A stretch of 23,748 nucleotides of DNA from a virus (IMGVR_UViG_3300032265_002014:1-23748); one strand, 5' to 3'; positions 8,178 to 23,594 are shown, counted from the first letter of the stretch. Translations and numbers: made by a program. Notes: generated by a model from the letters alone, not told the origin.

Positions 8178-8360
8178 ATGGTTGCAAATAAATTATTACA
8201 AGACCGTGTGTGGCTTGAAAAACAATATGTCGATAATGAAAAATCAATAGATCAATTGGCTCAAATGTGTAATGCCGATAGGTCTTTAGTTATATATTAT
8301 CTCAACGAATTTCGTATCTACCGCAAATATAATAGAGACATTCATCCTAAGCGTTGGTAG
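8178..8360 (+). CDS. Small helix-turn-helix DNA-binding protein
   Basis: 60 aa, mostly one domain. VWLEKQYVDNEKSIDQLAQMCNADRSLVIYYLNEFRI matches the pattern of a homeodomain-like HTH (helix, 'KSIDQLAQMCNADRSLV' turn and recognition helix), as found in phage regulators and at the ends of homing HNH proteins. No HNH residues are present, so it is probably a regulator. The gene has a leaderless promoter and stands alone; its end overlaps the convergent 8347-8478 gene by 14 bp. Confidence 0.7.
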   Translation: MVANKLLQDRVWLEKQYVDNEKSIDQLAQMCNADRSLVIYYLNEFRIYRKYNRDIHPKRW

Positions 8361-8610: not shown

Positions 8611-8820
8611 TTATTTAGTAACATGCCACTTAGAGTAAACAGTACCTCTATCCTCATCATAGAATGAGAATGAATCGATATTTTGTTCACATACTTCACA
8701 GAATGTAAAGTAATCAGCACTATAAAAATCTTGTGCTATAACTGAGATAGACTCCTTGTGTGGAGTATGTCCCTTAGCACAGAGAGTAGTAGTAGTATTG
8801 TTATTTGTTAGTGTAGTCAT
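8611..8820 (-). CDS. Small Cys/His protein, CRP-site-controlled
   Basis: 69 aa. After a Thr/Asn-rich start (MTTLTNNNTTTTL) come CAKGH and, later, FCEVC, which may form one zinc site. The closing part is aromatic and acidic. Promoter (8878-8907), CRP-like site (8940-8955) and terminator (8540-8580) all fit a monocistronic minus-strand unit. GAAAGGTGG serves as ribosome binding site. Function unknown. Confidence 0.6.
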   Translation of the reverse strand: MTTLTNNNTTTTLCAKGHTPHKESISVIAQDFYSADYFTFCEVCEQNIDSFSFYDEDRGTVYSKWHVTK

Positions 8821-8877: not shown

Positions 8878-8907
8878 AGTATAACATAGACCACTGACAT
8901 TTGTGGG
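8878..8907 (-). promoter_or_regulatory. Promoter of the 8820 gene
   Basis: Minus strand CCCACA (weak -35), 18 nt, TATACT. The spacer shares ACAAATGTCAGTGGTCT with the promoter at 14698, so an activator or common operator is likely. Confidence 0.55.
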
Positions 8908-8939: not shown

Positions 8940-8955
8940 TGTGAATCACATCACA
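8940..8955. promoter_or_regulatory. CRP/GlxR-type palindrome 1
   Basis: TGTGA-ATCACA-TCACA, perfect arms. Centre is 64.5 bp from the -10 of the minus-strand promoter at 8883. Confidence 0.75.
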
Positions 8956-9026
8956 TTTTTGGGGTGTACATATAGGATAAATCGGACATTGGGACCGCCC
9001 TCACTCGGGCGTGTCTGGGGATAAGG

Positions 9027-9035
9027 TGTGGATAA
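9027..9035 (-). promoter_or_regulatory. Isolated DnaA box
   Basis: TGTGGATAA on the plus strand, i.e. TTATCCACA on minus, the strict DnaA box. It lies alone, 5 bp before a CRP-like site. Confidence 0.5.
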
Positions 9036-9039
9036 CTAA

Positions 9040-9055
9040 TGTGACCTATATCACA
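9040..9055. promoter_or_regulatory. CRP/GlxR-type palindrome 2
   Basis: TGTGA-CCTATA-TCACA, perfect, with the central TA typical of GlxR sites. Centre is 61.5 bp upstream of the -10 at 9109. Confidence 0.8.
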
Positions 9056-9085
9056 AAAATAAATTGCGACACGCCGTGTTTCGAC

Positions 9086-9114
9086 TTGACTTTTTGATAT
9101 TTTTGTGCTATACT
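9086..9114 (+). promoter_or_regulatory. Promoter of the 9152 gene
   Basis: TTGACT, 17 nt, TGC-TATACT. Nearly the same sequence recurs at 9305-9333. Confidence 0.8.
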
Positions 9115-9151
9115 TACAGTATTAGAAAATAAAGAAAGGTTAGGTTAAAAA

Positions 9152-9262
9152 ATGACTAACACTAGAAATCAAGGGCTTAAATGCTCAGAATGTGGCAAAA
9201 TTCAGGCTTGGACAACTTGTACAAATTGCCAAATAAAGTACATAAAAGATAATAGAGTGTGA
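9152..9262 (+). CDS. 36-aa zinc-ribbon protein
   Basis: The short protein has CSECGK and CTNCQ, a complete four-Cys zinc ribbon (CxxC-x11-CxxC). AAAGAAAGGTTAGG precedes the ATG. The gene has its own promoter and CRP-like site, and its stop codon overlaps the next CRP-like site (9258-9273). Too small for an enzyme; a DNA-, RNA- or protein-binding adaptor is the likely kind of role. Confidence 0.65.
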   Translation: MTNTRNQGLKCSECGKIQAWTTCTNCQIKYIKDNRV

Positions 9263-9273
9263 CGCAAATCACA
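9258..9273. promoter_or_regulatory. CRP/GlxR-type palindrome 3
   Basis: TGTGA-CGCAAA-TCACA, perfect. Centre is 62.5 bp upstream of the -10 at 9328. Its first arm contains the stop codon of the 9152 gene. Confidence 0.8.
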
Positions 9274-9304
9274 CAGAAAATGTCCGAATTGTCCGTGTCT
9301 AAAC

Positions 9305-9333
9305 TTGACTTTTTGACATTTCTATGCTATACT
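9305..9333 (+). promoter_or_regulatory. Promoter of the 9486 gene
   Basis: TTGACT, 17 nt, TGC-TATACT; a duplicate of the 9086 promoter including the ACTTACAGTAT downstream part. Confidence 0.8.
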
Positions 9334-9339
9334 TACAGT

Positions 9340-9485
9340 ATCGAAAATTAAATAAGAATAAATCCTAGTTGAGCCTCTGAGCCTACCAAATAATCCGAAA
9401 GGTGAGCGTAGCAAATAAGAGCAAATAACACTAGGCAAGGAAATAGGTTAGAAAGTCTAATCGAATTAAAAGAAAGGTGTTCATA
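9340..9485 (+). other. Long structured 5' leader
   Basis: A 146-nt leader without a convincing reading frame. CCTAGT (about 9364) can pair with ACTAGG (about 9430), and GGTTAGA/TCTAATC (9446-9462) forms a 7-bp hairpin just before the ribosome binding site. It may be a cis-regulatory RNA; no known riboswitch is recognised. Confidence 0.4.
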
Positions 9486-9662
9486 ATGAATACACTAATA
9501 GAATACAAAACAGTAACTCTCCCTTGCGAAATGTGCAATGGTAGAGAGCATACCTTCCAAATTGTCGAGGGGTGTGAGCGTTGTGGCTCTGCTCATGGAC
9601 CTAGTCACGAGCCTTTCACTAAGGGTCATCGTCCACATTGCACAGGTAACTGTTGCTTCTAG
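9486..9662 (+). CDS. Small protein with two Cys clusters
   Basis: 58 aa. CEMC and CERC lie 20-odd residues apart and form a probable zinc ribbon, followed by a His-rich part (HGPSHEPFTKGHRPHC) and a closing CTGNCCF. The ATG at 9486 follows AGAAAGGTG. It resembles zinc-finger microproteins common in actinophage genomes; exact role unknown. Confidence 0.6.
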   Translation: MNTLIEYKTVTLPCEMCNGREHTFQIVEGCERCGSAHGPSHEPFTKGHRPHCTGNCCF

Positions 9663-9678
9663 TGTGGCATAAGTCACA
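9663..9678. promoter_or_regulatory. CRP/GlxR-type site 4, one mismatch
   Basis: TGTGG-CATAAG-TCACA with the central TA. It begins just after the stop of the 9486 gene and lies upstream of the 9766 operon, where a weak -10 TATCTG is at 9715. Confidence 0.55.
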
Positions 9679-9765
9679 CTTCGCCTTAGGGCGTGTCGCT
9701 ATACAATGTCAGTGCTATCTGATAAACTAATCCTAATAAACAAACTAAAGAAAGGTAGTCTATAA

Positions 9766-9957
9766 ATGACTTACACTATCAAAATCGAAAACTACTCTGG
9801 TACAGAAACCAGAATCGCTCTACCCTCTAAGGGTGCTGTTGCTCAGTTTATCTCTGAGTACCCTGCTAAGTTGCCTGTTGGTATCGCTGTCCGTATATCG
9901 TGTGACGCTCTAGGCGTTTCAGGTATCTTGCGAGGAAAGGCGTTGGTGTCTAACTAA
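9766..9957 (+). CDS. Hypothetical protein, first gene of a TAATG-coupled operon
   Basis: 63 aa (MTYTIKIENYSGTETRIALP and on), beta-strand pattern, ending LGVSGILRGKALVSN. AAAGAAAGGTAG precedes the ATG. Its TAA shares a base with the next ATG. Four further genes follow with the same one-base overlap, so the five make one operon ending at the hairpin at 10592. No family recognised. Confidence 0.6.
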   Translation: MTYTIKIENYSGTETRIALPSKGAVAQFISEYPAKLPVGIAVRISCDALGVSGILRGKALVSN

Positions 9958-10121
9958 TGAAACGACTAATCTCAATCGTGCTAATTGCATTACTCATGCC
10001 AATACCACTAGCACAAGCAAAAGGTCACAGCACACATCACTCATATGGTAAAACACATCATAAACTAACAGGCACTAAGCAACATCGCTACCTACACGCT
10101 ACTCATAGAAAGCATAAATAA
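9957..10121 (+). CDS. Small secreted His-rich protein
   Basis: 54 aa. MKRLISIVLIALLMPIPLAQA is a signal peptide (AQA cleavage), leaving a 33-residue mature peptide with nine His and many Lys/Arg. The signal part is nearly identical to that of the 11887 protein (MKRLIGIVLVALLLPVPIAEA), so they are paralogues in their export part. The mature chain could bind metals or act at the cell surface; unproven. Confidence 0.65.
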   Translation: MKRLISIVLIALLMPIPLAQAKGHSTHHSYGKTHHKLTGTKQHRYLHATHRKHK

Positions 10122-10285
10122 TGAATAAAGAATGTTCCGTAATGAATTGCAATAATACCAATTTGGTGTATAGTGGCGTAGATGCCTTTATGCTAGGTGG
10201 TATCCCTACAGAAAAGTATTGCTACACTTGTGCTGCTGCTTATCTTCAAATTTCCTATGATGTAGAAAATATGGTGAAACTCTAA
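10121..10285 (+). CDS. 54-aa Cys-rich protein
   Basis: The frame encodes MNKECSVMNCNNTNLVYSGV and on, with C-x4-C near the start and CYTC later, a likely zinc knuckle pair. Stop and start share bases with both neighbours. No family known. Confidence 0.6.
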   Translation: MNKECSVMNCNNTNLVYSGVDAFMLGGIPTEKYCYTCAAAYLQISYDVENMVKL

Positions 10286-10458
10286 TGGCTATCTATACTC
10301 GTAAAACTTTTATCTCTGTTTCTAATATCTTAAATGAATTCGTTGAAGATATTGACGAAGTTACTTTCCTTGATTTAGTCGAGGCGTTTGGAGATTTATT
10401 CTATGAAGATAATCCAAACTTTGATTCTGCAAAATTTAGAGAGGCGTGTACAAAATAA
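10285..10458 (+). CDS. 57-aa acidic helical protein
   Basis: The frame encodes MAIYTRKTFISVSNILNEFV followed by an acidic helix (EDIDEVTFLDLVEAFGDLFYEDNP). Its shape recalls small phage proteins that bind other proteins. Coupled on both sides by TAATG. Function unknown. Confidence 0.6.
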   Translation: MAIYTRKTFISVSNILNEFVEDIDEVTFLDLVEAFGDLFYEDNPNFDSAKFREACTK

Positions 10459-10580
10459 TGGTTAGACTAATAACTTCACTCGTTCAAATATTTTTATTTA
10501 TTCCCGCAATGATCGGATTGCATTGGATGTATTTAGATATAAAAAATGAATACAAAAATTTAAATTCACAAATTAAATAA
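10458..10580 (+). CDS. 40-aa single-TM protein
   Basis: The frame encodes MVRLITSLVQIFLFIPAMIG with a membrane helix at about residues 4-24, then a Lys/Asn-rich tail. It is the last gene of the 9766-10580 operon. A membrane role is likely, for example a spanin or holin accessory, but this is not supported by motif. Confidence 0.55.
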   Translation: MVRLITSLVQIFLFIPAMIGLHWMYLDIKNEYKNLNSQIK

Positions 10581-10591
10581 AATAAAATTCC

Positions 10592-10619
10592 TGAGCAAGA
10601 ATAAAAACTGCTCATTTTT
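10592..10619 (+). terminator. Terminator hairpin, copy of the AAAAC-loop family
   Basis: TGAGCA and TGCTCA pair around an 11-nt loop ending AAAAC, followed by TTTTT. It ends the 9766-10580 operon and is one of four related hairpins (see 14118, 15200, 16423). Confidence 0.75.
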
Positions 10620-10644
10620 GAGGCCGACGCTCTCGGGCGTGTCG
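10620..10644 (+). repeat. GC-rich GGCCGACGC...GCGTGTCG element
   Basis: CGACGC can pair with GTGTCG (one G-U) as a small hairpin. Similar elements lie at 12300-12323, and partial ones at 8994-9016, 9066-9074, 9683-9698, 10782-10789, 13507-13547, 15247 and 16559. Confidence 0.6.
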
Positions 10645-10658
10645 TGATTTACGTACGA

Positions 10659-10674
10659 TGTGATTTTTCTCACA
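10659..10674. promoter_or_regulatory. CRP/GlxR-type palindrome 5
   Basis: TGTGA-TTTTTC-TCACA, perfect. Centre is 72.5 bp upstream of the -10 at 10739, one helical turn more than sites 2 and 3. Confidence 0.75.
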
Positions 10675-10715
10675 CCAGTTGAGCGTCTCAATATTTGGAA
10701 TTACTGGCTAGTAAG

Positions 10716-10744
10716 TTGATATTTTTAGACTAATAGGATAGACT
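10716..10744 (+). promoter_or_regulatory. Upstream promoter of the 10859 operon
   Basis: TTGATA, 17 nt, TAGACT, followed by TACAGAGTAAG, like the 9086 and 9305 promoters. Confidence 0.6.
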
Positions 10745-10791
10745 TACAGAGTAAGAAAAAATAAATATTTAAGTATCTACGGCGTGTCGAG

Positions 10792-10820
10792 TTGATAATG
10801 TCAGACCCATATGCTAAGAT
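10792..10820 (+). promoter_or_regulatory. Downstream promoter of the 10859 operon
   Basis: TTGATA, 17 nt, TGC-TAAGAT. An imperfect operator TGATAATGTCA overlaps the -35. Confidence 0.7.
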
Positions 10821-10858
10821 ATTTATATCAAGTTAAATAAAGAAAGAAGGTAGTCAAT

Positions 10859-11080
10859 ATGGCTAACACTTACTCAATAGAAAGCCTCTTAGAGGGAACC
10901 TACTATCGTTCTTATTCTCGCAAGGGATTAGACGGAATTATCCAATACGCAGAAAAGCGTTCTGATGTATGGTATGACAATGCAGAAGCGTATGTCGTTA
11001 AAGTACGCCCCACCTATGACGGAAAAGGTATCTTCCGTAATGACTTCTATGCGACAGTAGTCGTAAAGGTTGGTGACTAA
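10859..11080 (+). CDS. Hypothetical protein, 73 aa
   Basis: The frame encodes MANTYSIESLLEGTYYRSYS and on, with many Tyr and Arg and a final VVVKVGD strand. AAAGAAAGAAGG precedes the ATG. Two promoters and a CRP-like site lie upstream; it opens the 10859-12288 operon. No family recognised. Confidence 0.6.
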   Translation: MANTYSIESLLEGTYYRSYSRKGLDGIIQYAEKRSDVWYDNAEAYVVKVRPTYDGKGIFRNDFYATVVVKVGD

Positions 11081-11082
11081 TA

Positions 11083-11247
11083 ATGGGAAATATTCTAGAT
11101 GAACTCTCAGATGTAACAGTTGTATCTTGTGATGAGTGCAATGGTGCAGGATTTATATTTTGGGGTAACGATAATGATTTTGACGTTATGTCCTGCGATT
11201 GTGTAGAAGAAAATAACGATGAACTAACTTTAGATTGGAATAACTAA
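11083..11247 (+). CDS. 54-aa zinc-ribbon-like protein
   Basis: The frame has CDECNGAGFIFWG and, later, CDC: a DnaJ-like CxxCxGxG knuckle followed by a half knuckle. The rest is acidic. Two bases separate it from the previous stop (TAATAATG), so reinitiation is likely. Function unknown. Confidence 0.6.
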   Translation: MGNILDELSDVTVVSCDECNGAGFIFWGNDNDFDVMSCDCVEENNDELTLDWNN

Positions 11248-11248
11248 T

Positions 11249-11464
11249 ATGGAATACTTATACTCAGTAACTTGTACCTATGATAATGACACAACACCTA
11301 AGTGGATTGGTCGTTACTCAGACGCACTATCCGCAGTAGAAGTCTATCAGAAGTTTATAGACCACGGATTTGCTAATGAATACTCAACAGTTAATCTATC
11401 AGAGCCTAGTGGCAAAATGCACACTAAGGTATTTTATCGCAATGGAAATGTGAGTGTGAAATAA
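11249..11464 (+). CDS. Hypothetical protein, 71 aa
   Basis: The frame encodes MEYLYSVTCTYDNDTTPKWI and on: an alternating strand, a helix (SDALSAVEVYQKFIDHG) and two further strands, an alpha/beta mini-domain. Stop shares a base with the next ATG. It lies in the 10859-12288 operon; no family known. Confidence 0.6.
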   Translation: MEYLYSVTCTYDNDTTPKWIGRYSDALSAVEVYQKFIDHGFANEYSTVNLSEPSGKMHTKVFYRNGNVSVK

Positions 11465-11604
11465 TGCCAGTTTTTCAGTTTAATACTTATATAGACGTAG
11501 AAGCAGCAGACCAAGATGAAGCAGTAAGTTGGTTTGATTATCAGATGTCAAAAACTAATGGATTTTTAGATCGTATATATGTCGCAGAAATAGAGGAGAA
11601 ATAA
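11464..11604 (+). CDS. 46-aa acidic protein
   Basis: The frame encodes MPVFQFNTYIDVEAADQDEA and on to EIEEK. The pattern strand, 'AxDxDEAxxW' helix, strand is similar to that of the 18424-18612 protein (EAVDEIDAEDQV), so both may belong to the same small ferredoxin-like phage family. Coupled by TAATG upstream. Confidence 0.55.
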   Translation: MPVFQFNTYIDVEAADQDEAVSWFDYQMSKTNGFLDRIYVAEIEEK

Positions 11605-11606
11605 TA

Positions 11607-11885
11607 ATGGGAAGCGTAACAGCAATTGGACTTGCAGAGTCAGAATTAGATTTAGAAAAGCAATTGGCATATCACTTGCAAGGTAATCACTATCCACCAG
11701 TGCCACTATCTATGGTGCAACCTTGCATAGATGCTATTGATGCAGCCTATGATGAAGACTATGATAGAGAAATTGAAATGCCCGAAGGCGTATCGTATAA
11801 AGGTTTGACAACAGCACCAGCGTGGGCTATTATTGAACAGCACCACCTTGATTGGTTCATTAACCCAGCAGAAGATGAGGAATAA
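11607..11885 (+). CDS. Hypothetical protein, 92 aa
   Basis: The frame encodes MGSVTAIGLAESELDLEKQL and on, acidic at both ends, with a helix around SMVQPCIDAIDAAYDEDYDRE and an aromatic end (HHLDWFINPAEDEE). AGAGGAG precedes the ATG. It lies between a 46-aa gene and the secreted paralogue at 11887. No recognised domain. Confidence 0.6.
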   Translation: MGSVTAIGLAESELDLEKQLAYHLQGNHYPPVPLSMVQPCIDAIDAAYDEDYDREIEMPEGVSYKGLTTAPAWAIIEQHHLDWFINPAEDEE

Positions 11886-11886
11886 A

Positions 11887-12036
11887 ATGAAAAGACTAAT
11901 TGGAATTGTATTGGTTGCCCTACTATTACCCGTACCAATTGCAGAGGCTAAAGTGTGTGGGGTAAGTCGTACCTACCACGTTAGTGGCTACAAGCATAAA
12001 ACAACTGTCCGCATGACCTACTCTTGCACTAAGTAA
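11887..12036 (+). CDS. Small secreted protein, paralogue of 9957-10121
   Basis: 49 aa; the ATG at 11887 starts a signal peptide MKRLIGIVLVALLLPVPIAEA with likely cleavage after AEA. The mature part (about 28 aa) has two Cys, could form a disulfide, and is basic. The leader matches that of 9957-10121 at about two thirds of positions, while the mature parts differ. It sits one base after the previous stop. Confidence 0.65.
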   Translation: MKRLIGIVLVALLLPVPIAEAKVCGVSRTYHVSGYKHKTTVRMTYSCTK

Positions 12037-12045
12037 AGGAATAAA

Positions 12046-12288
12046 ATGCCTGCTACAATGTTAAACATGGAATTGATACACGCAGACTCACTATCACCAG
12101 ATCAATTAATGGAAGGCGATTTGGTTGAAATTGAAGAAGGAGTTGTTGAAGTAATTTCTTTACAGTCAGATGCGACTGGAGATAATTATTTTGTTGAATG
12201 GCAAAATGAATTTGGTGAACGTGATGAAATTAAAATTAACGTTGATGAAAAAATAAAGTTATTTGTTTTTATTGAAGACAACAAATAA
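12046..12288 (+). CDS. Small beta-barrel-like protein
   Basis: 80 aa: a hydrophobic start, then SLSPDQLMEGDLVEIEEGVVEVISL and on, a pattern of an SH3-like or Hint-like barrel with 'GD-x-V' after a helix. AAAGGAATAAA precedes the ATG. Last gene of the operon that begins at 10859. Nucleic-acid or protein binding is possible, function unknown. Confidence 0.55.
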   Translation: MPATMLNMELIHADSLSPDQLMEGDLVEIEEGVVEVISLQSDATGDNYFVEWQNEFGERDEIKINVDEKIKLFVFIEDNK

Positions 12289-12299
12289 ACTGCAAAACT

Positions 12300-12323
12300 G
12301 AGGCCGACGCAGACGGCGTGTCG
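12300..12323 (+). repeat. GC-rich GGCCGACGC...GCGTGTCG element
   Basis: Second clear copy of the hairpin seen at 10620: GAGGCCGACGC, short loop, GCGTGTCG. It again lies between an operon end and a CRP-like site. Confidence 0.6.
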
Positions 12324-12325
12324 CA

Positions 12326-12341
12326 TGTGAGATTAATCACA
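12326..12341. promoter_or_regulatory. CRP/GlxR-type palindrome 6
   Basis: TGTGA-GATTAA-TCACA, perfect. Centre is 42.5 bp before the -10 at 12376 and 54.5 bp before the ATG that is also the predicted transcription start. Confidence 0.8.
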
Positions 12342-12351
12342 TTTACGTAAG

Positions 12352-12381
12352 TTGACATTTTTGCCCAATGTGTGCTAAGAT
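12352..12381 (+). promoter_or_regulatory. Leaderless promoter of the 12388 gene
   Basis: TTGACA, 18 nt, TGC-TAAGAT, then exactly 6 nt to ATG. Confidence 0.8.
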
Positions 12382-12387
12382 TAATTT

Positions 12388-12534
12388 ATGAAAACAAGAA
12401 AAAGCCCTGAGGAGTTACGCAAACTTATGGAGTTGCGTCGCTCTAATGCTGCCTCTTGCGTTCCCTCAAAGAAAGTCTATCGTAGAACTAGACAAAGCAC
12501 TAGGAAAATGTTAGAATTAACTAAAGAACAATAA
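12388..12534 (+). CDS. 48-aa basic protein, leaderless
   Basis: The frame encodes MKTRKSPEELRKLMELRRSN and on to LELTKEQ, with a Lys/Arg share near one third. It is predicted helical and may bind nucleic acid. Start is fixed by the -10 box 6 nt upstream and by the absence of a ribosome binding site. First gene of a unit with 12547-12693 and GP88. Confidence 0.65.
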   Translation: MKTRKSPEELRKLMELRRSNAASCVPSKKVYRRTRQSTRKMLELTKEQ

Positions 12535-12546
12535 GGAGACCCCCTA

Positions 12547-12693
12547 ATGGAAAACCAATATATCTGCAATAGTTGCAATGAAAACTTAGTTGATGAGTAT
12601 GAAGAGAAGTGTGTGCACTGTATGCTTGAAGAAATGTCTGTAATCTATAATGAAGATATTGCACTAGAAATGAGTCTTGGCCTTGACTACTAA
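12547..12693 (+). CDS. 48-aa zinc-ribbon protein
   Basis: CNSCNE and CVHCMLEE make a CxxC-x11-CxxC ribbon, followed by an acidic helix. AAGGAG lies 9 nt before the ATG. Its end overlaps the GP88 start by 17 nt in another frame, so the two are probably coupled. Confidence 0.65.
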   Translation: MENQYICNSCNENLVDEYEEKCVHCMLEEMSVIYNEDIALEMSLGLDY

Positions 12694-13417
12694 TACACTT
12701 AAACTAAAACGCTCCAATGATCGTAAAGTTGCTAATCTAGTAACTAAGAATGGCAAGCAGGCTGCAATTGCTAATACCTTTGGCCTTCCCGCAGGTAAAG
12801 AATATTCTTGCCCTGGTGCTACTAGCGTATGCGAATCTGTATGCTATGCAGGTAAATTAGAAAAACTCTTCAAGGGTGTAAAGGTTAACCTATTGCATAA
12901 TTGGGACCTATTGAAAGACGCTGATTTACAAACAATGTACACGTTACTTTCTGAGATGATTGCAGAATTTAAAACTGACTGTGTAAAGAAGAATGCACCT
13001 ATGCTATTTCGCATTCATTGGGATGGCGATTTCTTTAACGATGACTACACTCAAGCATGGCGTTTAGTTATTGAAGAACAGCCAGACATTCAATTCTGGG
13101 TATACACTCGTGTAAAGTCTGCTGCTCTTATCCTTAAAGATATTGATAACCTATCTCTTTATTTCAGTACTGATAGTGAGAATGTAAAAGTTGGTGTGGA
13201 CCTTAAAATTAATTCTGGTGTACGCCTTGCATACCTTGCTAAAAACTTTGCAATAGGTCAAGCAGACATGAAAGAAATGATTGGTAAGCCTGGTGCTAAA
13301 TGTCCTGAAAATAATAAACAAATTCCATTGATTAGCGAGAAAGGCTCCGCTTGCGTTTCATGCTCACTTTGTGTATACTCAAAAGCAGACATTGTATTTT
13401 CTGCGAGTAAGAAATGA
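12677..13417 (+). CDS. GP88-family phage protein
   Basis: 246 aa. The protein starts at TTG 12677 (or TTG 12683); no ATG or GTG precedes the conserved part. KNGKQAAIANTFGLPAGKEYSCPGATSVCESVCYA is the hallmark of the family of mycobacteriophage gene product 88, found in actinophages with unknown function. Cysteines 45, 52 and 56 form one cluster; C209, C226, C229 and C232 (ACVSCSLC) form another at the C-terminus, as in iron-sulfur or zinc sites. The middle has HWDGDFF and FWVYTRVKSA, which may be active-site strands. It follows a zinc-ribbon gene and precedes a 19-aa hydrophobic ORF. Confidence 0.8.
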   Translation: MALTTNTLKLKRSNDRKVANLVTKNGKQAAIANTFGLPAGKEYSCPGATSVCESVCYAGKLEKLFKGVKVNLLHNWDLLKDADLQTMYTLLSEMIAEFKTDCVKKNAPMLFRIHWDGDFFNDDYTQAWRLVIEEQPDIQFWVYTRVKSAALILKDIDNLSLYFSTDSENVKVGVDLKINSGVRLAYLAKNFAIGQADMKEMIGKPGAKCPENNKQIPLISEKGSACVSCSLCVYSKADIVFSASKK

Positions 13418-13425
13418 GTTAAACA

Positions 13426-13485
13426 ATGGCACAAATTGTAATTGGAATCTTTGGTCTAATTTTTATTTTATTTTTATTTCAATGA
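13426..13485 (+). CDS. 19-aa hydrophobic micropeptide
   Basis: The frame encodes MAQIVIGIFGLIFILFLFQ, almost entirely one transmembrane helix. It begins 8 nt after the GP88 stop, with AGTTAAACA and no clear ribosome binding site. It is too short for gene finders; the composition is far from random, but translation is unproven. Confidence 0.4.
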   Translation: MAQIVIGIFGLIFILFLFQ

Positions 13486-13547
13486 CTTGATAAGTCCCCC
13501 GAAATGGGGCCGACGCAAAATGATCCATTTGTCAAGTTACGACACGC
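13484..13547 (+). other. Complex stem-loop region after GP88
   Basis: GACTT-GAT-AAGTC and CCCC-GAAAT-GGGG are two adjacent hairpins; ACTTGA can also pair with TCAAGT at 13532-13537. GGCCGACGC and a reversed GCGTGTCG lie in it. Probably a terminator-like boundary or processed RNA end. Confidence 0.4.
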
Positions 13548-13555
13548 TTTAAGAA

Positions 13556-13571
13556 TGTGATGTTTATCACA
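13556..13571. promoter_or_regulatory. CRP/GlxR-type palindrome 7
   Basis: TGTGA-TGTTTA-TCACA, perfect. Centre is 51.5 bp before the proposed -10 at 13615. Confidence 0.75.
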
Positions 13572-13590
13572 AGAAAAATGGGCATTTGGA

Positions 13591-13620
13591 TTGGTATTTT
13601 TGACATTTTTAGTGTAGAAT
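13591..13620 (+). promoter_or_regulatory. Promoter of the 13655 gene
   Basis: TTGGTA, 18 nt, TAGAAT, with the T-rich spacer TTTTTGACATTTTT also found in the 9086/9305 family. A second TTGACA at 13600 fits less well. Confidence 0.5.
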
Positions 13621-13654
13621 TAAACTATAACCCAAACAGAAAGGAAAGACCCCA

Positions 13655-13825
13655 ATGACACTTCACGGATACACTTACCAAATTGGTGACCTATTCACAA
13701 CCAGCAAGACAGGCGTTACAGGTCGTATCGCTAGTTTTTCACCAATCAGTAATAAGGTTACCAGAGTTAGTCTAGTTTTGGCAAATGGCTCTCGTCGCTT
13801 GGCTATGGTCAAGACTTCTAAGTAA
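13655..13825 (+). CDS. Small beta-barrel protein, paralogue of 13929-14093
   Basis: 56 aa. YQIGDLFTTSKTGVTGRIAS matches YKVGDTFTTQKSKVTGTIME of the next gene, and both close with a short strand of small polar residues. The pattern looks like an SH3-like or KOW-like mini-domain, which often binds RNA or DNA; this is an inference. AGAAAGGAAAG precedes the ATG, and the leader is also shared with the next two genes. Confidence 0.65.
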   Translation: MTLHGYTYQIGDLFTTSKTGVTGRIASFSPISNKVTRVSLVLANGSRRLAMVKTSK

Positions 13826-13856
13826 TCTCAAAATGTGAGAAATGTTAGATTTCGAT

Positions 13857-13886
13857 TTGACATTTCAATCTGCAAAATGTTATACT
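13857..13886 (+). promoter_or_regulatory. Promoter of the 13929 gene
   Basis: TTGACA, 18 nt, TATACT. It lies directly after the stop of the paralogous gene. Confidence 0.75.
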
Positions 13887-13928
13887 AATACAGTAAGCAA
13901 AACCCCTAACAGAAAAGGAAATAAACAA

Positions 13929-14093
13929 ATGACAGTAAATACAGCAACTTACAAGGTAGGCGATACTTTCACTACACAGAAGTCAAAGGTAACAGGAACA
14001 ATTATGGAAATTAACCCACAGGCTAATGGAAATGTTCGTGTTAAGTTAGATGTAAATGGTACATCACGCTACACAACTTGGACAGCAAAGTAA
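13929..14093 (+). CDS. Small beta-barrel protein, paralogue of 13655-13825
   Basis: 54 aa with the ATG at 13929, which follows AGAAAAGGAAA; a longer reading from 13842 would cover its own promoter. YKVGDTFTTQKSKVTGTIMEINPQ and a closing TTWTAK share the plan of the preceding gene. Tandem duplication is likely. Function unknown. Confidence 0.65.
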   Translation: MTVNTATYKVGDTFTTQKSKVTGTIMEINPQANGNVRVKLDVNGTSRYTTWTAK

Positions 14094-14117
14094 GTAATTA
14101 GCAATCGCTAAATGACC

Positions 14118-14142
14118 TGAGTAAGTCAATTAAAACTGCTCA
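14118..14142 (+). other. AAAAC-loop hairpin, copy 2
   Basis: TGAGTA and TGCTCA pair (one G-U) around a loop ending AAAAC. No T-run follows, so RNA polymerase may pass into the 14180 gene, which shows no promoter of its own. Confidence 0.6.
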
Positions 14143-14179
14143 ACTCAAACCCCCAACTAACAGAAAAGGAAAGACCCAA

Positions 14180-14602
14180 ATGGCAAGAGGAAAAGCAATC
14201 TCAGTAAAAATCCCTACTGAGCGAGTAATCACGGCACTAGAGGCATCACTAGCAAAACTAGAGTCAGACTACGCATCACAAGAAGCAAACGAAGCAGAGT
14301 ATGAAGTTGCTCGTAAGGCTTGGCAAAAAGAAATCCAAGCGTATGCAATCGCTAACATCACAAATGCTGAGAACTTTCGCACAAACTATCGTTCTTGGAA
14401 TAACAATCTTAACATTGACTTTGATTTGACAGTATCCGAAAAGGATTTGCCAAAAGAGCCAAGCAGAGAGTTCGTAACTCTGCACCAACACACATACAAT
14501 GAGCAAAAAGAGGAAATCGCAAACGCAATTCGTATCCTCAAAATGACAGATGAGGAAGTTGTAAATACTTCCACATACAACGCAGTTGCTCGTTATCTTT
14601 AA
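14180..14602 (+). CDS. Hypothetical helical protein, 140 aa
   Basis: Long helix around residues 10-60 (VITALEASLAKLESDYASQEANEAEYEVARKAWQKEI), probably a coiled coil, then a more mixed middle and a second helix (EQKEEIANAIRILKM). It starts after the same AGAAAAGGAAAGACCCAA leader as 13655. No membrane part and no catalytic motif; a structural or nucleoprotein role is possible. Confidence 0.65.
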   Translation: MARGKAISVKIPTERVITALEASLAKLESDYASQEANEAEYEVARKAWQKEIQAYAIANITNAENFRTNYRSWNNNLNIDFDLTVSEKDLPKEPSREFVTLHQHTYNEQKEEIANAIRILKMTDEEVVNTSTYNAVARYL

Positions 14603-14627
14603 TTAGATAATCGAAACAGGGGCAGTT

Positions 14628-14680
14628 TAGAGAGTGTTCTCGCCCAATGTCGTAAGTAAGAACTCTCCCCCTCTGGGGGT
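14628..14680 (+). other. Two stem-loops in the 14603-14759 gap
   Basis: GAGAGT(G)TTC pairs with GAACTCTC (8 bp with one bulged G), followed directly by CCCCC-TCT-GGGGG (14667-14679), a very stable 5-bp hairpin. No T-run. Likely an RNA boundary or processing site. Confidence 0.45.
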
Positions 14681-14697
14681 AGCCAAATGGATCGCAA

Positions 14698-14727
14698 TTG
14701 ACAAATGTCAGTGGTCTCGTGTACAAT
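14698..14727 (+). promoter_or_regulatory. Promoter of the 14760 gene, with operator
   Basis: TTGACA, 18 nt, TACAAT. TGACA-AA-TGTCA is a perfect palindrome over the -35. ACAAATGTCAGTGGTCT is shared with the 8907 promoter. Confidence 0.75.
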
Positions 14728-14759
14728 TAAATTAATCAAACAAACAGAAAGAGGCCCCC

Positions 14760-15176
14760 ATGGACCAAAACATCACCGTAGTAAATGCAACACATGAATT
14801 CCTTCAAACACAAATCAGTGCACTGCAGGAGTCAATTACATCTAAGGATGAATTCATTCAGCGGTTAAACCAACGTTCATATGCAGATTCAGCAAACCTT
14901 AACCGTATTGTTGAAGACATGCAACAGTGGACCTTGGAATCACTTAGCAATGAATCAATTACAACTTCGCAGGCAGAAGAGATTGCAGCAATCTGCGGAT
15001 TTGAATTAACAAAAGAAGTTGAAGTTGAAGTTACCGTAACTTATAACTTGACACTGCAGGTACCCCATGACGAGGACGAAGAATCAATTGTTAACGATAT
15101 CGATTTTGATTCTGTATCTTATAATTCTGACTACGTCACTTGGCTAAGTTCAAATGTAGACCGTATCGATTTTTAG
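14760..15176 (+). CDS. Hypothetical protein with N-terminal coiled coil, 138 aa
   Basis: Residues 10-60 (HEFLQTQISALQESITSKDEFIQRL ...) form a coiled coil. SEQ from about 65 (SLSNESITTSQAEEIAAICGFEL) is a helical hairpin, and a strand-rich tail (VEVEVTVTYNLTLQVPHDEDE ... YVTWLSSNVDRIDF) follows. AGAAAGAGG precedes the ATG. No family recognised. Gene stands alone between two hairpins. Confidence 0.6.
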   Translation: MDQNITVVNATHEFLQTQISALQESITSKDEFIQRLNQRSYADSANLNRIVEDMQQWTLESLSNESITTSQAEEIAAICGFELTKEVEVEVTVTYNLTLQVPHDEDEESIVNDIDFDSVSYNSDYVTWLSSNVDRIDF

Positions 15177-15199
15177 TAGGGGGCTACTAAATAAATTCC

Positions 15200-15226
15200 T
15201 GGGCCATGAATTAAAACTGGCCCTTT
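15200..15226 (+). terminator. AAAAC-loop hairpin, copy 3, with altered stem
   Basis: GGGCCA and TGGCCC pair around a loop ending AAAAC, then TTTC. The stem differs from copies 1, 2 and 4 in both arms together, which is compensatory change. Confidence 0.6.
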
Positions 15227-15257
15227 CAAAATCCCTGAAAATTTTGGGTCGGCCTCA

Positions 15258-15273
15258 TGTGATGAATCTCACA
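15258..15273. promoter_or_regulatory. CRP/GlxR-type palindrome 8
   Basis: TGTGA-TGAATC-TCACA, perfect. Centre is 89.5 bp upstream of the -10 of the DUF932 gene. Confidence 0.75.
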
Positions 15274-15331
15274 GTGTGTTTAAGATCACGTTTAAGAAAT
15301 GTCCGATTTGCCCCATGTTTACTAAGACGAT

Positions 15332-15360
15332 TTGACTTTGTCAGTCCCCTCTGCTAAGAT
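15332..15360 (+). promoter_or_regulatory. Promoter of the DUF932 gene
   Basis: TTGACT, 17 nt, TGC-TAAGAT. TGAC-TTT-GTCA overlaps the -35 (15333-15343). Confidence 0.8.
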
Positions 15361-15391
15361 TAGGTTATACCCAAAAAGAAAGAAGGAAAAA

Positions 15392-16408
15392 ATGGCTCAT
15401 GAACTCGAAACCCAAAATGGGGTTGCAAGTTTTGCATCATTCCGTGAACCTGCTTGGCATGGTCTCGGAACTGTATTCACAGAAGAAAAAAATACTGCTG
15501 AAATGTTAGAAGCAGCAAATCTAAATAAATGGAATGTACGTCTTGAGGACGTAGTTGTTCCTGAAACATTATCATCAGACAAGAATTATTTTTATGTCGT
15601 GCGTGATAATCCTACTACTGAATCGCAGACTGATATTCTTGGTGTAGTTGGTGAACGTTATCACACATTGCAGAATGAAGATTTATTCTCATTCGGGGAT
15701 AACATTCTCGATGGTGGTGGACGTTGGGAGACTGCTGGTTCACTTAAGGGTGGACGTGTAGTCTTTGGCTCTCTCGCTCTTGAACGTGAAACTGTTCTTG
15801 ACCCTACTGGTGTTGCTGATAAAATCAAAACTTATCTTTTGATTAACACATCACACGATGGTTCTATTGCAATTCAAGCAAGCATAACACCTGTTCGTGT
15901 TGTTTGTGCTAACACTCTCAACATTGCACTTAATCGCACACGCAAGAAGAATGGTGTCAAGCAATCTTTCAAGATTCGCCACACGCAGACAGCAAATGGC
16001 AAGGTGCAAATTGCTCGTGAGACTCTTGGTCTTGCTAATGCTTATATGGATTCATTCGATGTAATGGCTAAGTCACTTTTTGAGAAAGAAGTGAACGCTA
16101 AGCAATTTAACGATATTATTCTTGCAGCGTACCCTAAGCCTGAAAAGGACACTAAGGGTGCTCTCACTAAGTGGGAAAATAAAGTTGATACAATCAACGA
16201 TATTTACACAGGCGAATTTAACGGCATGATTGCTGGTAATGGTTGGGGTGCGTTTAACGCTCTTACTGAACGTCTTGATTGGTATCGCTCTGCTCGTGGT
16301 GGTTCTAACGAATCTATTCTTGCAGCAGCAAGTGGATTTGACCCTGCAATTAACGCAGAGAAAAATCGTTTGCTAAATGTTGTTCGTGACGTTTTGCAGA
16401 TTGCATAA
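15392..16408 (+). CDS. DUF932 phage/plasmid-like protein
   Basis: 338 aa; the ATG at 15392 is used because AAGAAGGAAA lies before it and because the preceding codons cover the promoter. PAWHGLG near the N-terminus, GVVGERYHTLQNEDLF, then TYLLINTSHDGSIAIQASITPVRVVCANTLNIAL are the typical marks of DUF932 (TIGR03299-type), found on phages and plasmids; it has been linked to nucleic-acid metabolism but has no proven activity. Length is usual for the family. The gene is monocistronic with its own promoter and CRP-like site, and ends before the hairpin at 16423. It is the longest gene of the early region, which suggests an important early function. Confidence 0.9.
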   Translation: MAHELETQNGVASFASFREPAWHGLGTVFTEEKNTAEMLEAANLNKWNVRLEDVVVPETLSSDKNYFYVVRDNPTTESQTDILGVVGERYHTLQNEDLFSFGDNILDGGGRWETAGSLKGGRVVFGSLALERETVLDPTGVADKIKTYLLINTSHDGSIAIQASITPVRVVCANTLNIALNRTRKKNGVKQSFKIRHTQTANGKVQIARETLGLANAYMDSFDVMAKSLFEKEVNAKQFNDIILAAYPKPEKDTKGALTKWENKVDTINDIYTGEFNGMIAGNGWGAFNALTERLDWYRSARGGSNESILAAASGFDPAINAEKNRLLNVVRDVLQIA

Positions 16409-16422
16409 CTAAATAAAAATCC

Positions 16423-16445
16423 TGAGCAAGATTTAAAACTGCTCA
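16423..16445 (+). other. AAAAC-loop hairpin, copy 4
   Basis: TGAGCA and TGCTCA pair around AGATTTAAAAC, as in copy 1. It lies 3 nt before the tRNA-Asp, so it may end the DUF932 mRNA or mark tRNA processing. Confidence 0.6.
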
Positions 16446-16448
16446 TCT

Positions 16449-16522
16449 GGTTCCATAGATCAATTGGTTAGATCGCTACCCTGTCACGGTAGAGGCTACG
16501 GGTTCAAGTCCCGTTGGAATCG
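16449..16522 (+). tRNA. tRNA-Asp (anticodon GTC)
   Basis: 74 nt, complete cloverleaf. The acceptor pairs GGTTCCA with TGGAATC (one G-U), the D arm is GATC/GATC, the anticodon arm CTACC-CTGTCAC-GGTAG, and the T arm ACGGG-TTCAAGT-CCCGT. The discriminator is G, as expected for Asp, and CCA is not encoded. It reads GAC/GAU, common in the acidic small proteins nearby. It has no clear promoter and may be cut from the DUF932 transcript. Confidence 0.92.
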
Positions 16523-16530
16523 CAATAAAT

Positions 16531-16603
16531 AAAAATGCAATGCAATGCATAAAAATGCAGGCCGACCAAAAATGTCATTCTCAAAATCAATTACGAAGTC
16601 GGC
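16531..16603 (+). repeat. ATGCA repeats and GCCGAC inverted repeat
   Basis: ATGCA occurs three times in a row (about 16535-16550) and again at 16554. GCCGAC (16561-16566) and GTCGGC (16598-16603) can form a stem with a 31-nt loop. No gene seen in the 16523-16680 gap. Confidence 0.45.
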
Positions 16604-16645
16604 ATATATTTCCAAAAATGTCAAATCAAAATGTTATTAAGATAG

Positions 16646-16674
16646 TTGACATATTTCCCCAAACATGGCATAAT
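16646..16674 (+). promoter_or_regulatory. Leaderless promoter of the 16681 operon
   Basis: TTGACA, 17 nt, CATAAT, then exactly 6 nt to ATG. Confidence 0.75.
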
Positions 16675-16680
16675 TGTCAT

Positions 16681-16848
16681 ATGACCCAAACATACAAACC
16701 TTATACCATAGACGAATTAGTTACTCTCATTTATGAGGATAATCTAGAACATTTTGAGCAAGCCACAGAAGACTGCGACTGCCATTTACATATCACTCTT
16801 AATACTATTGTAAAGTATTGGGAGCAAGACTATGTGGAGACTTACTAA
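16681..16848 (+). CDS. Hypothetical acidic protein, 55 aa, leaderless
   Basis: The ATG at 16681 is 6 nt after the -10 box, so a longer reading from 16540 is rejected. The frame encodes MTQTYKPYTIDELVTLIYED and on, mostly helix, with CDCHLH as possible metal site. Its stop shares a base with the next start. No family recognised. Confidence 0.65.
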   Translation: MTQTYKPYTIDELVTLIYEDNLEHFEQATEDCDCHLHITLNTIVKYWEQDYVETY

Positions 16849-16958
16849 TGCATAAACATCAATGGCTATGTAGCGATGTCCCTGGAGTATATACCTGTGG
16901 ATTTGATTGTGGGTTTGGATATTGGAATCCCGCTAAAGAAATAATAGAGGAGGGGTAA
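16848..16958 (+). CDS. 36-aa Cys/Trp-rich protein
   Basis: The frame encodes MHKHQWLCSDVPGVYTCGFD and on to EIIEEG, with three Cys, a His pair and several Trp/Gly. Coupled on both sides by TAATG. A small zinc-binding protein is possible. Confidence 0.6.
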   Translation: MHKHQWLCSDVPGVYTCGFDCGFGYWNPAKEIIEEG

Positions 16959-17113
16959 TGGCTAAACAATCCTGGTCTTGTGCCACATGTGGTGCTACTA
17001 CAACAGATCCTGAGCATAGGCTAATAGTATACTTTCACATGAACTGTCCAGGGAATGTGACAAAGGTCACACCCGTAGAACTTGACCCTGTCAGCCCAAA
17101 CCCCTATAATTAA
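16958..17113 (+). CDS. 51-aa zinc-binding protein carrying a CRP-like site in its gene
   Basis: CATCGATTTDPEHRL and, later, HMNC give a Cys2-HisCys zinc site (CxxC ... HxxC). AGAGGAGGGG precedes the ATG, which shares a base with the previous stop. Codons for NVTKVT form the CRP-like palindrome at 17056, and the -35/-10 for the next operon lie in its last codons. Confidence 0.6.
   Translation: MAKQSWSCATCGATTTDPEHRLIVYFHMNCPGNVTKVTPVELDPVSPNPYN
17056..17071. promoter_or_regulatory. CRP/GlxR-type palindrome 9, inside a coding region
   Basis: TGTGA-CAAAGG-TCACA, perfect arms. Centre is 41.5 bp before the -10 at 17105 and 53.5 bp before the ATG/transcription start at 17117. Confidence 0.75.
17082..17110 (+). 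promoter_or_regulatory. Leaderless promoter of the 17117 operon
   Basis: TTGACC, 17 nt, TATAAT, exactly 6 nt to ATG. TGAC-CCT-GTCA (17083-17093) overlaps the -35. Confidence 0.85.
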
Positions 17114-17116
17114 TAT

Positions 17117-17275
17117 ATGGACCTAAACACATTAACAGAATATATAAAGATACATCTTATCAGTGTCCAACAAGACTATGATAAGGTACCCGAAGGGGAT
17201 AGAGATTCTATCATCCACCTTAATGGACAACAGTATGCCCTTAATCATATACTAGGAGTATTAGGTGAGCGATAA
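17117..17275 (+). CDS. 52-aa helical protein, leaderless
   Basis: The frame encodes MDLNTLTEYIKIHLISVQQD and on to LGVLGER. All-helical pattern. Start is set by the promoter; the stop lies 11 nt inside the next gene. It opens the seven-gene operon to 18964 (17265, 17504, 17717, 17982, 18424, 18614). No family recognised. Confidence 0.65.
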   Translation: MDLNTLTEYIKIHLISVQQDYDKVPEGDRDSIIHLNGQQYALNHILGVLGER

Positions 17276-22211: not shown

Positions 22212-22260
22212 CCAACCTCTTTTCGCCGAACTTTAAAAGATTTTATTTTTTGCCGTGCTG

Positions 22261-22266
22261 TATAAT
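22261..22266 (+). promoter_or_regulatory. Leaderless -10 box of the monooxygenase gene
   Basis: TATAAT, exactly 6 nt before the ATG at 22273; -35 not clear. Confidence 0.6.
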
Positions 22267-22272
22267 GATTAT

Positions 22273-23079
22273 ATGTCAATAAACATTCACTGGATGCAAA
22301 GAGATCATTGGCCTTGTACTAATGCTGGATTAAGACAAATGGCAAAGGAACTAGAGGATATTGGGGTATGTTCTGTTTTGCTTCCATATGGACCAGGAAC
22401 AGAAGATTTTGTAGTACATTTACCAGATATTTTTAGAGATACAAAAACTATTAGAATGATGGTTGCTTGGGGTGCATATGCTGTTACTCCAGAATATGCA
22501 ATAAGAACTTTTGATTCAATTCAAGCCTTTGGAAATAGCCGAACTGATCTTAATCTTGTTGCTGGAAGATATAGCCCAGAATTTGAAAATATGGCAATAG
22601 AATTTTATTCTGGTGATCCTGCATTAATAGATACACATGAAAAAAGGGTAATGATTACCAAAAAATGGATGGAAAAGTTTTCTAAATTAGTTAGGAATAA
22701 AGAGTATAAAACAAAATTAGCCGTAGTTGGAACATCCGATACAACAATTGAAGTTGCTAATAAGTATACAGATTATATAATTACAACTGGTATAAATCTT
22801 TATAATAAAGAGTATATGGATAAGATTAAAAATTGTTCTATTCTTTTGCTTATAAACCCATTAATTATTGAAGATGGGCAAGATGAGTCAAGCATCGAAT
22901 ATGATGATTCAAAATTTGCAGTCAAAGGTGGTCATTGGCCTAAAGGAACTTATGAAGAGGTAAAAAATACCATTATAGAAATATATGAAAATTTAAACGT
23001 AAAAGATTTTTTGCTTCATACTGATCAAAAAGATATTAGTCAATTAACTAAATTAGTAAAAGATATAACAACGTTTTGA
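22273..23079 (+). CDS. Luciferase-like flavin-dependent monooxygenase (LLM class)
   Basis: 268 aa; ATG at 22273, 6 nt after a -10 box. The N-terminus (INIHWMQRDHWP ... AGLRQMAKELEDIGVCSVLLP) and TIRMMVAWGAYAVTPEYAIRTFDSIQAFGNSRTDLNLVAGRYSPEF match the bacterial-luciferase/alkanesulfonate-monooxygenase fold, where the second part lines FMN and carries the 'GR-x-x-x-N-V-x-G' theme. The family usually has 330-380 residues, so this is a shortened form lacking C-terminal helices. Whether it still binds flavin is uncertain. As an auxiliary metabolic gene it could desulfonate an organosulfur compound or act in host redox chemistry; this is an inference. Confidence 0.75.
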   Translation: MSINIHWMQRDHWPCTNAGLRQMAKELEDIGVCSVLLPYGPGTEDFVVHLPDIFRDTKTIRMMVAWGAYAVTPEYAIRTFDSIQAFGNSRTDLNLVAGRYSPEFENMAIEFYSGDPALIDTHEKRVMITKKWMEKFSKLVRNKEYKTKLAVVGTSDTTIEVANKYTDYIITTGINLYNKEYMDKIKNCSILLLINPLIIEDGQDESSIEYDDSKFAVKGGHWPKGTYEEVKNTIIEIYENLNVKDFLLHTDQKDISQLTKLVKDITTF

Positions 23080-23117: not shown

Positions 23118-23594
23118 ATGCAAACATTTCTGCCATCATCAGATTACGAATACTCTGCCCAATCACTAGACAATAAGCGTTTAAATAAACAAATCCTAGA
23201 AGGCTATCAAATCCTCAAAGTCCTATCTGGTGCTTCAGAGTCTGGTGCTTGGAAAAATCACCCAGCAGTACTTATGTGGAAAAACTCTGAAAACCACCTT
23301 ATGGAGTATATCGATCATATGGTTTATGAAGCAGAGTGGAGAGGCATTAAGACTGATAAAAATGTTTTAAACCTTAAAACCCTTAAGTCAGCCTTTAGTC
23401 ATCTATGGGGCAATAGCCTTCCCGTTTGGCAAAAGCCAGAGCATGTAATCCGTGTTGTTAATAGCCATAAGGCTAATCTATATCGTAAAGATCCTATTAT
23501 TTATTCTTCTTTTAAATCCTATACCGCCGAACCCTGCTGCGATAAATGTTTATATTATTGGCCTACCCATGTTGAAAGAAAATTGAGTGTTTGA
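23118..23594 (+). CDS. Pyrimidine-dimer DNA glycosylase-like protein (Pyr_excise type)
   Basis: 158 aa. MQTFLPSSDYEYSAQSLDNKRLNKQILEGYQILKVL, with NHPAVLMW and, later, HKANLYRKDP, is the pattern of actinobacterial proteins in the pyrimidine-dimer glycosylase family. T4 DenV uses its N-terminal Thr2 amine as nucleophile; here Thr is residue 3, so catalysis may differ. Expected role is repair of UV dimers in phage or host DNA, useful in sunlit water. The gene is leaderless. A C-terminal CCDKCLYYWP may bind zinc. Confidence 0.8.
   Translation: MQTFLPSSDYEYSAQSLDNKRLNKQILEGYQILKVLSGASESGAWKNHPAVLMWKNSENHLMEYIDHMVYEAEWRGIKTDKNVLNLKTLKSAFSHLWGNSLPVWQKPEHVIRVVNSHKANLYRKDPIIYSSFKSYTAEPCCDKCLYYWPTHVERKLSV

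Follow-up and report, generated by a model that had tools for sequence, protein, structure and literature searches.

Palindromic sites upstream of small-gene operons

The virus record IMGVR_UViG_3300032265_002014:1-23748 is 23,748 nucleotides (nt) long and is referred to here, at its full length, as the window (23.7 kb; all coordinates are those of the whole stretch). Between positions 8940 and 17071 it carries a module of small-gene operons, among whose products are a GP88 family protein and a DUF932 protein, and these operons are preceded by copies of a CRP/GlxR-type palindrome, TGTGA-N6-TCACA. Scanning of the whole window revealed eight perfect copies, none of them outside 8940-17071, as well as a one-mismatch copy at 9663 and a second one at 15650, within the DUF932 gene (Table 1). 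The eight perfect sites and the site at 9663 are exactly those listed in the original prediction, which was made from this DNA alone and had also noted the lack of sites in the structural half. Its low chance expectation for ten fixed bases (about 0.02) was close to our recomputed values of 0.026 from the base composition and 0.04 from a first-order Markov model. Among palindromes with 5-bp arms and spacers of 0-14, TGTGA with N6 is by far the most frequent in the window, with 8 copies versus at most 4 for any other.

Enrichment and conservation of the sites in relatives

A motif scan of the phage and its relatives, which the original prediction had suggested, clearly revealed the same palindrome. 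In 59 loci neighbouring DUF932 genes (0.97 Mb) we found 220 perfect sites, versus 1 with reversed arms and 0 each with N7 or N5 spacers. The 80 GP88 loci, every one with at least one site, hold 432 perfect sites versus 3 for the control; the two locus sets overlap, some contigs being common to both. With 652 sites against 4 reversed-arm controls over these overlapping sets, and with 0.03-0.04 sites expected in the window, the idea that chance or composition produced the palindromes is ruled out by the control patterns; the AT-rich composition is the sole point in its favour, and we regard its probability as negligible. Each of 11 large relatives, with contigs of 49-122 kb, has all its perfect sites confined to a single 3-10 kb cluster. 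The commonest exact variant in relatives, TGTGATTTTTCTCACA, is present in at least 118 loci. Among the matches listed, 90 of these loci match window proteins, most of them with several sites, and the other 28 hold TGTGATTTTTCTCACA alone, save one with two sites. Because the loci without window-protein matches are nearly all single-site, the clustering is a property of this phage family.

The anatomy of the motif was derived from 168 non-redundant sites, in which TGTGA is followed by T in 51% and the third spacer position is A/T in 88%. One-mismatch copies numbered 215, versus about 40 for permuted arms, and their mismatches fall mostly at the outer T (T1) or at A5 and rarely hit the GTG/CAC core. 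TGTGA-N6-TCACA with GTG/CAC as its most constrained part is the form of a CRP/GlxR site, and the phage motif agrees with the GlxR consensus, TGTGANNTANNTCACA, in its arms, N6 spacing, tolerated mismatches and A/T centre (PMC4254451).

The sites are also kept at orthologous promoters, as judged from distinct orthologues with a site of no more than one mismatch in the 260 nt upstream. For genes directly after a window site, 56-100% of the orthologues keep it: 100% of 74 for gene 10859 (85% perfect), 90% of 42 for 17117, 72% of 43 for 8611-8820 (median 120 nt upstream), 65% of 85 for 12388, 62% of 87 for the DUF932 gene at 15392, 56% of 80 for 9766 (mostly perfect, median 91 nt upstream) and 56% of 78 for 13655. 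Two second genes after a site also have high rates (80% of orthologues for 12547 and 53% for 17265). The rates for operon-internal genes are mostly 0-4%, the exceptions being 12683, 16681, 17504, 17717 and 19064 at 7-15%, and 12% of random segments from the same loci hold a site with no more than one mismatch. Absence of the motif from the same promoters in relatives, which the original prediction had named as the outcome that would count against it, was thus not observed.

Position of the sites relative to predicted promoters

We described the promoters by a two-block model (TTGAnn, 17 bp, extended -10 TGnTAnnnT), with the reverse strand and random segments as controls. Generic E. coli promoter weights, tried first, failed to separate the sites from the background and were replaced. 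A promoter was found downstream of 54% of sites, compared with 7% in the reverse direction and 5% in random segments; since these forward sequences had also served to train the model, the first rate is somewhat optimistic. With a simpler TTGA/TAnnnT rule that needed no training, the counts were 78/167 forward and 24 reverse, and the random rate was 15%. When the start was taken as 7 nt after the -10, the centre-to-start distances peaked at about 53.5, 63.5, 74.5 and 85, with a best period of 10.5 bp (p~0.0004; similar sequences merged, leaving 42 gene-by-distance events). The original prediction had read helical-turn spacing from eight centre-to-(-10) distances in the window. All eight were reproduced, 64.5 being the leftward reading of site 8940, but on their own they are insufficient for that claim, and it is the 10.5-bp period in relatives that establishes it.

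As expected of class-I-type activation, the sites lie upstream of the -35 and on one helical face. We infer activation rather than repression, which suits the geometry less well because the centres lie upstream of the -35 and -10 and are helically phased. It is unlikely that a host CRP binds these sites but represses or times the module as a brake: although CRP/GlxR orthologues are able to repress, and the promoters have a reasonable -35 and an extended -10, most centres lie 53-86 bp ahead of the start, off both promoter elements and in helical phase.

Candidate regulator and host

A phage-encoded CRP was rejected, as neither a CRP helix-turn-helix (HTH) nor a cNMP (cyclic nucleotide monophosphate) domain was present in 12 large relatives, and a profile of candidate-host CRPs had no match in 6,173 phage open reading frames (ORFs). 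WhiB, an actinophage marker (PMC10202952), is encoded by 11/11 large relatives tested. Among genome contigs, a close DUF932 relative was found on one alone, which is 4.7 kb long, holds one perfect site and belongs to the metagenome-assembled genome (MAG) Actinomycetota bacterium WB8_2xO_007. In the family of this MAG, taken as the candidate host family although the host link itself is weak, a CRP HTH scored above the curated cut-off in 47/61 genomes. These CRPs are clear orthologues of GlxR (Corynebacterium glutamicum) and CRP Rv3676 (Mycobacterium tuberculosis) with the RETVNK helix; the recognition helix is GASRETVNK in those that were read, and the best PDB matches of one of them are M. tuberculosis CRP (E=6e-79) and C. 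glutamicum GlxR. GlxR is mostly an activator (PMC4254451, PMC7999487).

We further observed that GTG-N8-CAC is depleted in two single-contig genomes of the family, G014 and G029, compared with other spacers of the same codon phase (106 vs 168, z -4.7, and 108 vs 181, z -5.4), and in both it lies below every other same-phase spacer tested. GTGA-N6-TCAC counts were 4 vs 14 and 5 vs 19 at same-phase spacers, and among the 64 N8 dyads GTG is the most avoided in one genome and the second in the other. No avoidance of GTG-N8-CAC was seen in the phage outside the cluster. The host depletion is indirect evidence for the purging of spurious sites for a CRP of this specificity. Purging of the consensus, together with the possibility that replicating phage DNA could hold most perfect sites, might point to a sponge that mainly titrates host CRP and disturbs host regulation; we consider this very unlikely, since a sponge needs none of the conservation in promoter, strand, orthologue and helical phase.

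We also think it improbable that a phage-encoded non-CRP DNA-binding protein recognizes the palindrome and coordinates the module. In its favour, the early regions of phages often contain repeats of the phage's own operators, the family has many proteins without an assigned function, and the cluster is adjoined by a small 60-aa HTH-like ORF (8178-8360), a possible phage DNA-binding protein. Against this, the arms, N6, tolerated mismatches and A/T centre are all those of the CRP/GlxR consensus, and a matching CRP is encoded by the candidate hosts, in whose genomes this dyad is avoided.

The original prediction went on to place the module under the control of cyclic AMP (cAMP) or the host energy state. 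Class III adenylate cyclase (PF00211) was found neither in 20 candidate-host-family genomes, a search that did not extend to other cyclase classes, nor in 11 phage relatives; the control search found it in C. glutamicum. Because of this absence, the energy-state proposal is without support, although the host is itself a candidate. CRP in candidate hosts of the G014/G029 family may work without cAMP, and the phage module suggests that CRP is still functional in the candidate hosts despite the apparent lack of an adenylate cyclase. Taken together, the notion of a phage regulon under a host CRP/GlxR-like protein stands with respect to its multi-operon extent, the lack of a phage CRP in 12 relatives, the activator geometry and the conservation, and not with respect to the cAMP step.

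Relationship to Streptomyces BE-cluster phages

At the DNA level, the 8.8-9.5 kb segment had no match among GenBank phages. At the protein level, the best GenBank matches of the window DUF932 protein are from Streptomyces BE-cluster phages (~54% identical) and those of the GP88 protein from mycobacteriophages. Between a 114-kb relative (G002) and Streptomyces phage NootNoot, the portal, protease and capsid are 47%, 40% and 42% identical. NootNoot carries GP88 and DUF932 in the same order and direction as the window, inside an ~11-kb direct terminal repeat that is present at both ends (PMC5764925; PMC8612146). As judged from these identities of 40-54%, the family is a distant relative of Stanwilliamsviridae rather than a member of BE. 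In IMG/VR the large contigs are listed as linear and lacking end repeats, which is also how a collapsed repeat would appear. On the basis of its homology with the direct terminal repeats of the BE phages, the module is probably among the first expressed. Inheritance of the wiring from BE phages was rejected, the sites being absent in the BE relatives.

Features of the cluster

The elements of the cluster are collected in Table 1. Weakly scoring promoters are those at 13556, at 9663 and leftward of 8940.

Table 1 Palindromes, predicted promoters and annotated genes in the cluster
Feature	Coordinates	Strand	Centre-to-(-10) (bp)	Promoter score	Context
Palindrome TGTGAATCACATCACA, perfect	8940..8955				Best assigned to leftward gene 8611-8820
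Extended -10 TGTTATACT	near 8883	-	64.5		For gene 8611-8820; poor -35
Palindrome TGTGACCTATATCACA, perfect	9040..9055		61.5		Upstream of TTGACT-N17-TGCTATACT; centre 73.5 bp from assumed start
Predicted promoter TTGACT-N17-TATACT, extended -10	9086..9114	+		17.7	
Palindrome TGTGACGCAAATCACA, perfect	9258..9273		62.5		Precedes near-copy of 9086 promoter
Predicted promoter TTGACT-N17-TATACT	9305..9333	+		17.7	
One-mismatch site TGTGGCATAAGTCACA	9663..9678		52.5		Upstream of operon beginning with 9766-9957
Palindrome TGTGATTTTTCTCACA, perfect	10659..10674		72.5		Upstream of operon beginning at 10859
Predicted promoter TTGATA-N17-TAGACT	10716..10744	+		15.6	
Palindrome TGTGAGATTAATCACA, perfect	12326..12341		42.5		Upstream of 12388 (operon with GP88)
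Predicted promoter TTGACA-N18-TAAGAT	12352..12381	+		14.2	
GP88 family protein (PF17338)	12683..13417	+			Homologue within Streptomyces BE phage terminal repeat
Palindrome TGTGATGTTTATCACA, perfect	13556..13571		51.5		Upstream of 13655; promoter weakly defined
Palindrome TGTGATGAATCTCACA, perfect	15258..15273		89.5		Upstream of DUF932 gene
Predicted promoter TTGACT-N17-TGCTAAGAT	15332..15360	+		16.1	
DUF932 protein (PF06067)	15392..16408	+			Homologue in BE-phage terminal repeat, ~54% identical
Palindrome TGTGACAAAGGTCACA, perfect	17056..17071		41.5		3' end of ORF 16958-17113; upstream of operon beginning at 17117
Predicted promoter TTGACC-N17-TATAAT	17082..17110	+		8.5	

Several other short elements accompany the sites and promoters. 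TGTCAG lies just 3' of the -35 in many promoters (9707, 10799, 14706, 15339 and 17089 on the plus strand, 8894 on the minus strand), and in 80 relatives AATGTCAG has 435 coding-strand copies versus 54 on the other strand and 7 of the reversed word; it is possibly the site of a second regulator or a promoter element. An ATGTCCG box occurs near several sites (9280 and 15299, plus; 8917 and 8983, minus), and relatives hold 254 copies of it on one strand and 100 on the other, versus 24 for the reversed word. The intergenic regions adjoining palindromes contain GGCGTGTCG (9690, 10636, 10781 and 12315, plus; 9067, minus); for GCGTGTCG, relatives hold 156 and 162 copies by strand and 0 of the reversed word. 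Hairpin-like repeats of the form CCTGAGCA...TGCTCA stand at operon ends (10580-10615 and 16411-16446, with a weaker copy at 15189-15224), are abundant in relatives and are likely terminators or processing sites. Away from the cluster, ORF 22255-23079 has weak similarity, below the Pfam cut-off, to luciferase-like monooxygenases and is adjoined by a pyrimidine-dimer glycosylase gene (23118-23594).

Proposed mechanism and comparison with known systems

On the sequence evidence, we consider it likely that a host CRP/GlxR orthologue binds the palindromes and activates the phage module. Very probably, the module is a regulon that responds to CRP/GlxR by class-I-like activation, in a phage family with a distant relationship to Stanwilliamsviridae. 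In the proposed mechanism, the palindromes would be sites for this orthologue, a dimeric regulator of the CRP/FNR family, which the phage family, without a CRP of its own, would borrow from its actinobacterial host. The CRP dimer would sit about 53, 64, 74 or 85 bp upstream of the start, on one helix face, and recruit host RNA polymerase to the extended -10 promoters by class-I-like activation, so that the small-gene operons would be turned on together.

Several observations weigh against this proposal. The assignment of the host to the MAG's family is based on WhiB and one small MAG contig, and no phage GP88 gene was found in 296 genomes of that family beyond the known MAG. Candidate-host genome G014 has no one-mismatch sites between genes, and neither G014 nor G029 has an intergenic excess of GTG-N8-CAC, so that the search for a host regulon with the same motif was unsuccessful. 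The Streptomyces BE relatives are without the sites, and the wiring is therefore not common to the whole group. The class I positions of E. coli are -61.5, -72.5 and -82.5; they are not exactly matched, with a phase offset of 2-3 bp at assumed starts. Since the peaks miss these positions and the starts are assumed, we call the promoters class-I-like rather than class I; the offset may not be real, for the same reason that the starts are assumed.

A more far-reaching scenario, which we regard as doubtful, is that a whole family of aquatic actinophages hard-wired its takeover module to the CRP of hosts from which adenylate cyclase has been lost and strong CRP sites have been purged, that CRP works there without cAMP, and that the phage supplies most of the best targets, both recruiting and diverting the global regulator.

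Single host-regulator sites in phage promoters are already known. In the literature searched, which leaves out most subscription journals, we found no conserved phage module of several operons directed at a single global host activator throughout a large family of environmental phages that have no copy of the regulator, and no precedent for a phage module controlled by CRP/GlxR. The arrangement would tie infection to the regulatory state of the host in a way that can be tested, and site plus phase constitute a sequence signature for finding the module.

Compared with the operators of GlxR and M. tuberculosis CRP, the phage sites have the same TGTGA-N6-TCACA consensus and A/T-rich centre. They differ in being located in a phage, at about 1 per kb in the cluster versus 209 in 119 actinobacterial genomes across the phylum (control 28; both are our own sums), and in that no class III adenylate cyclase was found in the 20 genomes of the candidate host family. 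The Streptomyces BE-cluster phages (Stanwilliamsviridae, e.g. NootNoot and Riptide) have homologous portal, protease, capsid and terminal-repeat genes, and the module corresponds to their ~11-kb direct terminal repeat (PMC5764925). TGTGA-N6-TCACA, which marks the aquatic family, is absent from the BE terminal repeats that were examined, and host and G+C differ as well. The situation resembles that of GIL01 and host LexA (PMC4551915), in which a host transcription factor runs phage promoters without a phage copy. Unlike GIL01, where a repressor acts at a lysogeny promoter, the present module would be addressed by an activator-type global regulator at many operons.

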